Virus record (IMG/VR): IMGVR_UViG_3300025652_000287
Coordinates: 1 to 32,367 of that record
Length of the DNA stretch: 32,367 nt
Origin: a virus
Strand: one strand, 5' to 3'
Below are positions 2,245 to 20,907 of the stretch, in pieces. The position numbers and the translations under genes are program-made. The notes beneath the pieces are model-generated. The model saw only the letters and a program-made list of their open reading frames with translations. It had not been told where the DNA came from and ran no database searches. Positions within the stretch are counted from its first letter, which is position 1, and every line of letters begins with the position of its first letter.

Positions 2245-3300
2245 TTATCTTATGTTTTTTAACCATTGCAAATTGATTTGATTTGCTATTTGTGCTATCA
2301 TTATTGGAGGCACGCTCATCCCTACTAAGTATTGTGGTAATGAACCATTAAAATTATAATCTAATGGATAAGACCCGACTTGTATAGCTTCACTATCTGT
2401 CAATCCAGCCTTATCTCTCTCTTTAAATAGATCATGCTGATTCTGACTAGTAAGGGTATCACAAACATTTTTTTCAAATATTAATCTTCTTGAAAAACCT
2501 TTTCGTTTTCCAAACGATTCATAGTATTTACCGAAATCTGGTTCATTGTTCTTTATGCACCAATTTATTCCTTTTAACATTTCGGCATTAGGTGAAAATA
2601 AATCTCCAAATAAATTTTCAATAAATCTAAAAGCAATGGGTTTCTCATTAAAATCTAATTTTAGTTTTGGTAAATCAAAATCATTCCTTAATCCTATAAA
2701 AAACACCCGTTCTCTTTTTTGTGGTACACCCATACTAGCAGCATTCAATAAGAACAATTGAACATTATATCCTGCTTTTGTGAATTCCTTGTTTATCTTC
2801 TTCGCATAAGCTTTAGCATTTCCTTGAATTAATCCTTTTACGTTCTCTAATAGAGCTACCTTAGGTCTTAATTTTTTGATAGTCTTTACATATTCAAAAA
2901 CTAAATCATCTAATCTTTGCTTTTTTTGCCCTTCTTTAAAAACTTTATTTTTCCCCCATGCTTTCTCTCTACTTCCCGCTAGACTGAACGAACTACAAGG
3001 AGGAGAGCCGTCTAAAATATCTAAATCATATAATTTTTTTGGTAAATCTTCCCGCTGGTTAAACACCCTTATATCTTCTATAAATAAATATTTAGATTTA
3101 TGATTAGCCTTATAAATAGCGGCTACTTTTGGGTCTATCTCTACCCCTCCTAGATGCTCATACCCTGCTAGTTTATAGCCCATAGAAGAACCACCACCAC
3201 AAATGAAAGTACCAAAAACTTTGCTGTTATGTTTAGTTATTCCTTTTGCTGGATAACCATCTTTTAACCACCATTTATAAGGAAATTTATACTCATCCAT
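2245..3300 (-). CDS. DNA cytosine-C5 methyltransferase (Dcm-like)
   Basis: Transfers methyl from S-adenosylmethionine to C5 of cytosine in a short DNA target. The conserved blocks occur in order: motif I 'FICGGGSSMGYKLAGYEHLG', motif IV with the catalytic Cys in 'DGSPPCSSFSLAG', motif VI 'ENVKG', motif VIII 'QKRERVFFIG', and a motif X-like end 'GMSVPPIMIAQIANQI'. The region between VIII and X is shorter than in many restriction-linked enzymes. No restriction endonuclease lies next to it, so it is an orphan enzyme, probably protecting phage DNA from host restriction. Its start overlaps the end of the ParB-like gene by 8 nt, indicating translational coupling. The recognition site cannot be read from the sequence. 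Confidence 0.93.
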   Translation of the reverse strand: MDEYKFPYKWWLKDGYPAKGITKHNSKVFGTFICGGGSSMGYKLAGYEHLGGVEIDPKVAAIYKANHKSKYLFIEDIRVFNQREDLPKKLYDLDILDGSPPCSSFSLAGSREKAWGKNKVFKEGQKKQRLDDLVFEYVKTIKKLRPKVALLENVKGLIQGNAKAYAKKINKEFTKAGYNVQLFLLNAASMGVPQKRERVFFIGLRNDFDLPKLKLDFNEKPIAFRFIENLFGDLFSPNAEMLKGINWCIKNNEPDFGKYYESFGKRKGFSRRLIFEKNVCDTLTSQNQHDLFKERDKAGLTDSEAIQVGSYPLDYNFNGSLPQYLVGMSVPPIMIAQIANQINLQWLKNIR

Positions 3301-10985: not shown

Positions 10986-11306
10986 GATTAGAGATATAGG
11001 AGGTCTGCTCCCCAAAGATAGCCGCCTCTTCACTAGGGATTTTGTGCGGACTTTTGGACTGATTCCTTAGACTGTCTATATAATTGATTGATTAATAGGT
11101 GGTTATGCTGAATTAAACTAGTCCTTTTGCTTTGGACTTGTATGGTCAGTCCAAAGTCCAAAATGGGCTAATGGTCTTTTGGACTGCTTTGGACTGTGTT
11201 CGGACTGTTATAATAGATTGATTAACAAAGATTTAGATACCAAAAGTCCAAAAGCCCACTTCTTTTCTTTATTTTATTATTAGTCTTTTTTCAAATGTCT
11301 GGACGT
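10986..11306. promoter_or_regulatory. Control region with a cluster of TTTGGACT repeats
   Basis: Gene-free stretch between an early terminator and a late promoter. Exact TTTGGACT or its complement occurs at 11053, 11131, 11148, 11155, 11178, 11188 and 11245 (start positions, both orientations), with shorter GGACT matches at 11048, 11120 and 11202. Copies at 11147-11196 form a large dyad with a 3-nt offset. The layout suits a multi-site regulator or a replication initiator. One more copy lies in the immunity region at 20165. Confidence 0.7.
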
Positions 11307-11869: not shown

Positions 11870-12145
11870 TTAAGCATTCACCGCAGCATTCAACTCCTTT
11901 CCTGCCTTAAATTTAACTACTTTCTTAGCTGCTATCTGAATCGCTTCTCCAGTCCTTGGATTACGTCCAACTCTAGCAGCTCGTTCGGTAATAGAAAACG
12001 TACCAAAACCTAACATTGCGACTTTTTCGCTATTTTTTAGAGTCGCTTGAATCTTAGTAAATACAGAATAAACCGCTTCGGCTGCTTGCGATTTCGTAAG
12101 GTTTGCATTTTCTGCTACGTGGTTGATTAAATCCCCTTTGTTCAT
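11870..12145 (-). CDS. HU-family DNA-binding protein
   Basis: A 91-aa histone-like protein with the full HU/IHF layout: 'MNKGDLINHVAENANLTKSQ' N-terminal helices, 'LGFGTFSITERAARVGRNPR' with the GRNPRTGE DNA-intercalating arm, and the C-terminal 'KKVVKFKAGKELNAAVNA'. The length matches the family. It would dimerise, bend and wrap DNA. In this phage it lies in the early/replication region next to a ParB-like gene, so it may assist replication, integrase complexes or repeat-based control sites such as the GGACT cluster 0.6 kb away. A strong terminator (11822-11859) closes its unit. Confidence 0.95.
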   Translation of the reverse strand: MNKGDLINHVAENANLTKSQAAEAVYSVFTKIQATLKNSEKVAMLGFGTFSITERAARVGRNPRTGEAIQIAAKKVVKFKAGKELNAAVNA

Positions 12146-18124: not shown

Positions 18125-18154
18125 TAAGCTTCTACCTCGGTCGGGTAGGGGCTT
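18125..18154 (+). repeat. 30-bp hairpin repeat, copy 1
   Basis: Identical over 30 nt to the minus strand of 29337-29366. The hairpin (AAGCTTCTACC with GGTAGGGGCTT) pairs fully, with two G-U pairs, only in plus-strand RNA. In minus-strand RNA it has two C-A mismatches but is followed by ATATTTTTTC. It overlaps the stop of the 72-aa gene. Confidence 0.75.
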
Positions 18155-18371
18155 ATTTAGTTTTAATGAGTAGCATTTTTAATACATCCTCGACTGGCTT
18201 GATAGGCGCATATCGAAAATTATAATAAATGTGTTCATACGCCTTGTCCATTCCTATCGCACAAAAGGTCTCCTGTTCTGCTTTCAATAATTCCTCTGCT
18301 GCTGTTCTTAGCTTGACTTGCAGTTCAAAAAGCCGTAATTGTAATAATTTCTTTTTTTCTTCTTCGTGCAT
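18153..18371 (-). CDS. Small helical protein, unknown function
   Basis: A 72-aa protein with a charged coiled coil at its N-terminus ('MHEEEKKKLLQLRLFELQVK') and a C-terminal part 'YEHIYYNFRYAPIKPVEDVL'. No family is recognised. It lies just downstream of the terminator of the candidate structured RNA. Its stop codon overlaps one copy of a 30-bp sequence that recurs inverted near 29337, the only pair of long dispersed identical copies that I see in the window. Confidence 0.55.
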   Translation of the reverse strand: MHEEEKKKLLQLRLFELQVKLRTAAEELLKAEQETFCAIGMDKAYEHIYYNFRYAPIKPVEDVLKMLLIKTK

Positions 18372-18390
18372 AACTAATTTTTGATTGGTT

Positions 18391-18421
18391 TAAAAATAAC
18401 CGCCAGCCCAATACTGGCGGT
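18391..18421 (-). terminator. Intrinsic terminator of the candidate structured RNA
   Basis: Perfect 8-bp GC-rich stem ACCGCCAG (18399-18406) with CTGGCGGT (18414-18421), 7-nt loop, followed on the minus strand by TATTTTTA. It stands upstream of the 72-aa gene and downstream of no credible coding gene, which implies that a non-coding transcript ends here. Confidence 0.75.
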
Positions 18422-19320
18422 ATTGACAACAACAACAATTTATAAATCCATTAACATATTTTAAAAGCTTCAAAAACCCCTCGACGCTGCGGTTGTTTAC
18501 AGTCGCCGAGGTATGTTGAAACCCTCTCTATCTTGTCGAAAAGTTCGCCGACACTTCTAATAAGTGCCAGCGATAAAAACCCCGTAAAATCTGAGAGCAG
18601 CATGCTCCCAGTATATTTTTTTGAAAATGCGGGAGACCTCCTTCCAATTACTTTTAGGCTGCTAATTTTAAGGATTCTAGAAAGCGAATTAGCAAACATT
18701 TTCTAGCCCGCTTCGTGACCAAACAATGTCACGCTATCACAAAGCCTAATTTCAAAAAACAATCTTGTTGCTCGGTCTCCCTTTTGGTATGTGTTGCAGT
18801 AGCAAAAGGAGTCGAACCTTTATCCTGATAGCATCACTATGCTATTCTGTCACCTGTAGCTACTGTATAAAAAGTCTCACTCTAACGAGTGGGCTGGAAA
18901 ACGGACAAATGAAAACAAACATCTTTCTGTTAAAGGATGCCGCTACTATGAAAGAAATCCTATTATAAACTAACTAGCAGCGGCGTCAACAATAACTATG
19001 AATCTTTGGGTGAATCCTGCCTCGTTGGCTCTTTTGCCTAAGACAGGACTCGATGATAATGTCAATTTAAAAAGTAGGGCGGCTGAGTCTGTTTTGGGTG
19101 TAGTTTTCTTGCCGCCCTTGCATTATGAATACACGATGAAACATTATTTCTTCTGTTTTAATATTGGTTTACCAAAAGGCTTAATAAATCTAATAATATT
19201 TAGTTGGCTATAAGTCGGTTTCTCCGTCCAATCTTGGCATGCAAATCCTAAGACAATTAATTGTAGGTTGTCGTGGTATCTAGAGCTTAGCCGTTGGCAT
19301 AACTCCCCGTTTTTATTGAT
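18399..19320 (-). ncRNA. Candidate large structured phage RNA (GOLLD/ROOL-like class)
   Basis: About 920 nt with no credible gene but many stable helices on the minus strand. Examples: 18546-18572 (11 bp, two G-U pairs, 5-nt loop); 18591-18611 (9 bp, one G-U); 18479-18511 (8 bp, one G-U); 18714-18733 (6 bp); 18654-18660 with 18743-18749; 18939-18948 with 18975-18984 (10 bp, one G-U); 19012-19021 with 19042-19051 (10 bp, two G-U); 19076-19118 (8 bp); and a possible pseudoknot at 19247-19272. The G-U pairs close only on the minus strand. A tRNA-like domain is embedded and an intrinsic terminator ends it. Size, phage setting and tRNA link recall the GOLLD and ROOL RNAs; family membership is inference. 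Confidence 0.55.
18797..18865 (-). other. tRNA-like domain inside the structured RNA
   Basis: The minus strand has a 7-bp acceptor-like stem (CAGTAGC at 18865-18859 with GCTACTG at 18803-18797) and a perfect T-arm, AAAGG-TTCGACT-CCTTT (18821-18805). The middle departs from tRNA. In place of an anticodon arm there is a 7-bp stem with a 4-nt loop (ATAGCAT-AGTG-ATGCTAT), the D-arm is not canonical, one extra U separates the T-arm from the acceptor, and no CCA is encoded. It is thus a degenerate tRNA or a tRNA mimic rather than a working adaptor. Confidence 0.45.
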
Positions 19321-19327
19321 GTAATAT

Positions 19328-19658
19328 CACTAGTGTTGCGTTATAAATAACAGAAAATCAATTCGTTATGACTGCTATTTTTAATAATTTGTAATTTAAG
19401 CCTACTAATCAGTTGATATACAGAAGGTTAATAAAACGAGAAAGTCTTCAATTTTTGTAGTTTTTTGTAGAAATTTTCATAAAAATATAGCTAATCATAA
19501 AAGCTTAAAAAATTATCTAGTCAGGATTTAATTAAATTTTTAGTTTGCTAAAATTATTAATCAAAACTCAATTGAAGTCGTGAAATCAAAAAACCTTTAT
19601 AATCAACTGTAAAACAACAAGTTATGACAAAAAATAATTTCTTAACGCAACACTAGTG
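19328..19658. mobile_element. MITE-like insertion with terminal inverted repeats and target duplication
   Basis: A 331-bp AT-rich element bounded by perfect 16-bp inverted repeats: CACTAGTGTTGCGTTA at 19328-19343 and its complement at 19643-19658. It is flanked on both sides by the same 9 bp, ATGTAATAT (19319-19327 and 19659-19667), a target-site duplication. It contains no gene of useful size, so it must have been moved by a transposase elsewhere. It sits between the HTH gene and the candidate RNA. The parent IS family cannot be named from the ends alone. Confidence 0.8.
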
Positions 19659-19753
19659 ATGTAATATTTACTACTCATTACCGTGATTTATTGGTTATGT
19701 AATGTTAGTTTTCTCTAGTATGCTCCTTAATCCCGTATTAGTAGGGTAGCTGA

Positions 19754-20032
19754 TTATGCTGCTATTGCGATTGCTTTCCGTTTGATTTCTAACTCTGGAG
19801 GATAATTCAACAGTTCATCCACCGTCACTTCTAAAGCTATAGCCAACTTAATTAAATCATTGCTTGTGAGGGTATTGCTATCTTCCATATTCCAGTTCCT
19901 TGCCTTGTGGAATCTGCTTGGCTCAATACCTACCGCTTCTACTACTTTTCGATAAACCTCTTTGTATGCTTTCCCTTTTTTCCCATTGTTTTTGTATTTA
20001 TCAAGTAATCTCTGTATTTTATATTTTCTCAT
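19754..20032 (-). CDS. XRE-type helix-turn-helix protein
   Basis: A 92-aa DNA-binding protein. The HTH region runs from 'VYRKVVEAVGIEPSRFHKAR' through 'NTLTSNDLIKLAIALEVTVD', matching the Cro/CI-like layout with 'LIKLAIALEVTVDELL' as the typical end. The frame is open upstream to 20074, but those residues ('MPTSCHTRPINYCL') are not family-like, and the ATG at 20032 gives a normal start. It is divergent from the repressor gene at 20247, so the pair forms the lysogeny/lysis switch, and this one is probably the Cro-like or antirepressor-side regulator. The MITE lies 95 bp downstream. Confidence 0.8.
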   Translation of the reverse strand: MRKYKIQRLLDKYKNNGKKGKAYKEVYRKVVEAVGIEPSRFHKARNWNMEDSNTLTSNDLIKLAIALEVTVDELLNYPPELEIKRKAIAIAA

Positions 20033-20177
20033 AAGACAATAATTTATAGGTCTCGTATGGCACGAGGTAGGCATGTTTTGTTAGAAATAAATTAAGAAAA
20101 GTGATTTTATTTACTTATTTAGCTATAATTTTGTACTTAAAGTCTATTGATTGCTCTTAAATACAGTCCAAAGATAT

Positions 20178-20213
20178 AACGCTATTTCGATAATTGCAAA
20201 CGCTATTTCGATA
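20178..20213. promoter_or_regulatory. Operator repeats in the immunity region
   Basis: AACGCTATTTCGATA occurs at 20178-20192 and 20199-20213, a 21-bp period (two helical turns) in the same orientation, between the divergent HTH and repressor genes. A CAGTCCAAAG copy lies just before at 20164-20173. Probable binding sites for one of the two regulators. Confidence 0.7.
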
Positions 20214-20744: not shown

Positions 20745-20907
20745 TCAGAAAAGTGTCACTTATCCCTGTTTTAGGGTTAAAAACATTTATGTAAGTTGTT
20801 GATTTATAAGAGTTTTGTGATTGCGGAGGGCTTCCTGTCTCCGCTACAATAACCTTGTAAGTCCTTGACTTGCAAGGTTTTATTTTTTTACTGACACTTT
20901 TTTCTGA
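20745..20907. other. Probable phage attachment site (attP) with inverted arm sites
   Basis: Between repressor and integrase. TCAGAAAAGTGTCA (20745-20758) and its inverted near-copy TGACACTTTTTTCTGA (20892-20907) flank a middle with GCGGAG...CTCCGC (20823-20844) and then a terminator. The middle looks like the 3' end of a host structured-RNA gene with its terminator, a common integration target. Exact core limits are not visible without the host sequence. Confidence 0.55.
20851..20890 (+). terminator. Terminator-like hairpin next to the probable att core
   Basis: 13-bp stem AACCTTGTAAGTC (20851-20863) with GACTTGCAAGGTT (20867-20879), one G-U pair, 3-nt loop, then TTATTTTTTT. No phage gene ends here, so it may be a host RNA gene terminator carried in attP. 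Confidence 0.75.

Follow-up and report, generated by a model that had tools for sequence, protein, structure and literature searches.

The window analysed here, 32,367 bases in all, is a complete virus record with integrase, terminase-like, primase and tail genes, which bears out the phage location given in the original prediction. It is a temperate phage, akin to those of Bacteroidota by its primase and terminase: the closest relative of the primase (55%) belongs to a prophage of Flavilitoribacter nigricans, and the terminase stands at 70% and 64% to two metagenomic contigs and at 36% to Polaribacter phage Leef_1. The region of interest is a gene-poor stretch between two minus-strand open reading frames (ORFs). 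Upstream, on the same strand, lies a 106-aa ORF (19754-20074) that probably encodes a Cro-like DNA-binding protein, a role suggested by the divergent repressor-like gene that faces it; its only match was a weak one to phrog_6530, of unknown function. Downstream, a 72-aa ORF (18153-18371) is the first gene of an early operon leading to the primase, and neighbour-protein searches gave zero relatives for either this ORF or the 426-aa neighbour of the RNA. The order is a divergent repressor-like gene, the Cro-like gene, the structured RNA, a terminator, 28 nt and the early genes, although the roles of these genes are partly inferred from the layout itself. We looked for a terminator between the Cro-like ORF and the RNA, and for a Bacteroidota-type promoter (TAnnTTTG) just upstream of the RNA, and found neither.

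The surrounding DNA holds further features. A 25-nt inverted repeat (19319-19343 and 19643-19667), 18 bp of it perfect and centred on the palindrome CACTAGTG, flanks a 299-nt spacer of 24% GC right upstream of the RNA. Its 17-nt core occurs at these two places only (expected 0.01), and the pair may serve as two sites for a regulator or mark the borders of a promoter segment that can invert. Between two divergent small putative regulator genes, the direct repeat AACGCTATTTCGATA is present at 20178-20192 and 20199-20213, 21 bp apart, where the copies are probable operator sites. Seven copies of TTTGGACT, in both orientations, occupy positions 11053-11252 of a gene-poor region with a strongly folding stretch, and one more lies at 20165; the 11053-11252 repeats look like iterons and possibly mark a replication origin. 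The phage also encodes an HU/IHF-like protein (11870-12145) and a C5-cytosine DNA methyltransferase (2245-3300). Just before the integrase gene, at 20828-20879, a hairpin GCGGAG..CTCCGC is followed by CTACAA and a terminator, and a similar string, GGTTCAGTTCCTGCCTCCGCTACA, adjoins a terminator in a host-family genome (locus L131). This site is a probable attP derived from the 3' end of a tRNA or tmRNA.

About 730 letters between the two ORFs are free of genes. The largest frame within the region is 82 aa and none of four small internal frames has a Pfam match, so the earlier statement that no credible gene is present holds. An origin tied to a reverse transcriptase or retron, a diversity-generating retroelement (DGR) or a guide-RNA nuclease was considered and set aside, such genes not being seen beside the RNA in the part of the window's genes that was searched. 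What the stretch does contain is a structured RNA core of about 726 nt on the minus strand, read from 19120 to 18395. Its minimum free energy is -233.4 kcal/mol, compared to -184.8 +/- 7.7 for shuffled sequences (n=200), giving a z of -6.3, and 0/200 dinucleotide shuffles were as stable. Folds of the same length elsewhere in the phage had z from -3.0 to +2.1, a range that is rough since it comes from 24 folds (12 places, both strands) with nine shuffles each. The core is also richer in GC (0.40) than the upstream spacer (0.24) and parts of the neighbouring lysogeny genes (0.25-0.31).

The core also stands out by its number of helices. Nine of them reach -16 kcal/mol or lower, where shuffles average 1.36 +/- 1.05 with a maximum of 5 (n=400) and 62 control windows from the same phage have a maximum of 6, in keeping with the original claim of at least nine; seven of the core's strong helices form within 45 nt (shuffle mean 0.25, maximum 2). 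Mean pairing probability is 0.92 or higher for nine helices. On the plus strand these strong and local counts fall from 9 and 7 to 6 and 2, and the fold z is -3.2. Seven of the nine strongest helices carry G-U pairs that would be unpaired in plus-strand RNA, as had been pointed out from the letters, and the minus strand is therefore the likely sense strand. Structure had been proposed across about 920 nt, and this stands for 18395-19120 and fails for 19121-19320. This last stretch of 200 nt, a possible 5' part of the transcript, folds no better than usual (local z of about 0 to +1), and the wider region (18380-19320, minus strand) has a z of -4.6.

Reading the minus strand from its 5' side, the core begins with three hairpins. 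The first (19076-19118) pairs AGGGCGGC with GCCGCCCU around a 27-nt loop at -21 kcal/mol with a pairing probability of 0.99. The second (19012-19051) pairs GAGUCCUGUCUU with GAGGCAGGAUUC over 12 bp, three of them G-U pairs that fix the strand, again at 0.99, and the third (18939-18984) pairs GCCGCUGCUA with UAGUAGCGGC over 10 bp at 1.00. A small hairpin, CACUC-GUUA-GAGUG (18878-18891, probability 0.92), is followed by AGACUUUUU, and together they make a possible weak internal terminator. Beyond the tRNA-like domain described below, a long-range helix of 8 bp between GGGAGACC (18774-18781) and GGUCUCCC (18631-18638) closes a domain spanning 18631-18781, at -18.8 kcal/mol over a 135-nt loop and with a probability of 0.66; the long-range pairing claimed at the outset is thus present. 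An inner UUAGGCU/AGCCUAA helix enclosed by it was read by hand, and the nested-fold model gives it little weight (probability 0.01). Toward the 3' side stand a hairpin of CUGGGAGCA and UGCUCUCAG (18591-18611, probability 0.95), the strongest helix of all, UCGCUGGCACUU with AAGUGUCGGCGA (18545-18573; 12 bp with two G-U pairs, -23 kcal/mol, probability 0.98), and a hairpin of CCUCGGCG and CGUCGAGG with inner CUG/CAG pairing (18479-18511, probability 0.99-1.00) that runs into GGUUUUUG. The core ends in an intrinsic terminator on the minus strand, ACCGCCAGU-AUUGG-GCUGGCGGU followed by UAUUUUU (18399-18421, probability 0.98). The original prediction had noted this terminator, which is likely to form the 3' end of the RNA.

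Within the long-range domain is a convincing H-type pseudoknot of 7+7 bp (18661-18706), with stem one formed by CUAGAAA (18700-18706) and UUUCUAG (18677-18683) and stem two by GCUAAUU (18687-18693) and AAUUAGC (18661-18667). Such a pattern arose in 0.5% of 400 shuffles, in 0/200 in a second test and in none of 62 control windows on both strands. It replaces the pseudoknot first proposed at 19247-19272, where the letters are present as described but 88% of shuffles hold an equally good 5+4 pattern and the loops of 0 and 1 nt are sterically implausible. The nested-fold model cannot represent pseudoknots, and for that reason the pseudoknot, the closing helix and the tRNA-like parts rest more on pattern statistics than on energy. 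Further, the pseudoknot and tRNA-like patterns were defined after the sequence had been seen, so that the shuffle rates flatter them somewhat.

The tRNA-like domain (18797-18865, minus strand) consists of a CAGUAGC/GCUACUG acceptor-like stem, a 7-bp hairpin (18828-18845) and a T-arm, AAAGG-UUCGACU-CCUUU (18805-18821), that fits the consensus with its UUCGACU loop. The combination of T-arm and acceptor was met in 0/400 shuffles and 0/124 control strands, and nested-fold probabilities are 0.53 for the acceptor-like stem and 0.09 for the T-arm. A true tRNA has a D-arm, a 7-nt anticodon loop, a T-arm and an acceptor stem. Here the likeness extends to the acceptor-like stem and T-arm, which are offset by 1 nt, and there is neither a D-arm nor a canonical anticodon loop; the Rfam tRNA model scores 21 bits against a cut-off of 29 and ARAGORN finds zero tRNAs or tRNA arrays in the window. 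The domain that had been described is thus upheld statistically, in the reduced form of these two elements. Derivation of the tRNA-like part from an attP site was considered and rejected, its 3' end being absent from the tRNAs of 61 sampled family genomes and a better att candidate lying beside the integrase at 20828-20850. The early region of another primase relative (locus L121, 4681-4764) holds a tRNA-like gene whose anticodon is irregular (tRNA-??? by ARAGORN).

Membership of the GOLLD or ROOL type, raised as a possibility in the original prediction, is not supported. Rfam was searched, as had been suggested, at the gathering threshold, with zero matches, GOLLD and ROOL included, and with permissive filters (E <= 10, 18370-19345), where again neither appeared and only weak matches were returned (tRNA at 21 bits, P9, Hrs13). 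Relatives were equally elusive. Searches with blastn found no DNA similarity in phage and plasmid records and no homologue in 298 Saprospiraceae-family genomes, 395 Bacteroidota genomes and the genomes of 11 primase relatives, where the only matches were of about 30 nt, attributable to chance, or a 25-nt match in apparent host sequence. The primase has many relatives; their syntenic regions are without similar DNA, as are the roughly 80 loci that were fetched. Single-sequence covariance models of the 18628-18784 domain (R1) and of the tRNA-like domain (R2) recovered only the window itself among the fetched loci, the R1 model found nothing in 398 genomes or 32 phage records, and exact scans of IMG/VR for the T-arm/acceptor and pseudoknot motifs found none. 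In total, no homologue was found in phage, plasmid and viral collections or in about 1,050 sampled genomes. Since each genome search scored a handful of candidates only, distant homologues would escape it, and the empty result does not prove that none exist. The RNA fits no known family and stands as an orphan, probably a fresh variation on the large phage RNAs.

At the syntenic place in the closest relatives the interval is shorter. In the closest prophage relative (locus L022, 7668-8050), strong terminator-like hairpins (fold z -4.1) are lined up in the interval that separates a small gene of DNA-binding type from the early operon. A near relative (locus L118) has a short counterpart that lacks a strong fold (z -1.7), with two terminator hairpins seen by eye. 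Sequence similarity between L022 and the whole core is not significant. An apparent similarity to the 3' domain of the RNA, matched by 0/200 shuffles, is one that we do not accept, as this domain was picked out with hindsight, the core taken as a whole shows no similarity and a terminator-like composition can produce such a result.

We prefer, at a little under an even chance, a model where the minus strand encodes a stand-alone, multi-domain non-coding RNA that acts in trans. Its probable source is the early (Cro-side) transcript, with transcription passing the Cro-like gene, or else an unrecognised promoter inside the AT-rich spacer (19343-19643); either way transcription would produce the RNA and stop at 18399-18421. 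The transcript, presumably a single molecule, would fold into at least nine hairpins, a pseudoknotted domain closed by the long-range helix and a tRNA-like domain of acceptor plus T-arm. It would then most likely work in trans in its own right, as GOLLD and ROOL are thought to, outside those families, and the tRNA-like part might, for example, have a role in protection or processing, or touch the translation machinery of the host. We favour this stand-alone RNA because its size, pseudoknot and tRNA-like part exceed the needs of a leader, and its roughly 730 nt are far more than a simple attenuator or the put element of about 70 nt (PMC9378689). The stability of the minus-strand fold, the strong helices with their one-strand G-U pairs, the pseudoknot and tRNA-like patterns, the terminator, the GC content and the internal frames free of protein families speak for it too. 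Weighing against it are the lack of a homologue, of a TAnnTTTG promoter just upstream and of a counterpart of equal length in the closest relatives with their terminator-like hairpins, as well as a place directly ahead of the early operon that would suit a cis-acting leader equally. A further-reaching reading places the RNA in a class of its own among large ornate phage RNAs, with no sequence relation to GOLLD, ROOL and OLE. It would combine a built-in tRNA-like domain with a core that contains the pseudoknot, come free from the early transcript of a Bacteroidota phage, act in trans and possibly form an RNA-only assembly; we consider this fuller proposal rather unlikely.

A cis-acting leader of the early operon, in which the RNA controls read-through of the terminator at 18399-18421 as do HK022 put or lambda N/nut, is possible, if somewhat unlikely. 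In lambdoid phages terminators stand ahead of the early genes, and putR is found about 270 nt downstream of the PR start (PMC9378689). The lambda-like gene layout, with a terminator 28 nt ahead of the early genes, is in line with such a leader, and so are terminator hairpins at the same place in the two relatives, several in tandem in L022 and two in L118. However, put comprises two stem-loops where the RNA here adds a pseudoknot and a tRNA-like domain, the short L118 counterpart lacks a strong fold and similarity to L022 is not significant for the core as a whole. Were it a leader, its size would be exceptional for an element controlling early genes, and large phage RNAs would thereby be tied to antitermination.

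We find it improbable that the region is instead a set of separate small RNAs, or of hairpin terminators lying next to one another. Internal hairpins followed by U-runs (18878-18891, and 18479-18511 with GGUUUUUG) would agree with this, but the long-range helix (18631-18781) and both stems of the pseudoknot join about 150 nt into one unit, and the one strong canonical terminator found is at the end. Very improbable is the absence of any functional RNA, the hairpins acting as DNA (e.g. in replication or packaging), being remnants of a decayed element or arising by chance: the empty homologue searches and the adjoining inverted repeat (19319-19343/19643-19667) would allow it, but the structure depends on one-strand G-U pairs that DNA hairpins would not favour, 0/200 and 0/400 shuffles match it and the terminator is on the same strand.

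Among known systems, the put RNA of HK022 and nut-tR1 of lambda share the place of the RNA, which follows a Cro-side gene and precedes the early genes, with a terminator downstream. Put RNA is about 70 nt with two stem-loops, and the RNA here is about ten times longer and more complex (PMC9378689). Published accounts of GOLLD and ROOL give prominence to their size, their pseudoknots, their location in phages and the tRNA islands close by (PMC12286853); of these traits, phage location, size and one pseudoknot are found here, and a match to the family models and the tRNA association are not. Single-sequence statistics, strandedness and the terminator thus support the large structured non-coding phage RNA that was first proposed, without its assignment to the GOLLD/ROOL type. 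Like GOLLD, of which many exceed 800 nt and which occurs in phages and prophages with an elaborate secondary structure, the RNA is large and phage-borne (PMC12286853). Some GOLLD RNAs carry tRNAs in a linker (PMC12286853), and here the tRNA association that had been proposed shrinks to a partial tRNA-like domain. Unlike GOLLD, the RNA sits ahead of an early operon, and the conserved 3' region of that family was not found in it. Likewise, ROOL is large and phage-encoded, with multiple pseudoknots and no known protein partner (PMC12286853); in contrast, there is no tRNA island here and one clear pseudoknot only was found (18661-18706). Further marks of the two families are raised expression during lysis and a multimeric nanocage for GOLLD, and a homo-octameric nanocage for ROOL. 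The likeness to both in size and location remains an analogy. Very few large structured phage RNAs are known (GOLLD, ROOL), and an independent large RNA in a different host phylum, with a fixed place ahead of early genes, would provide a second handle on the role of GOLLD, ROOL and RNAs of their kind.
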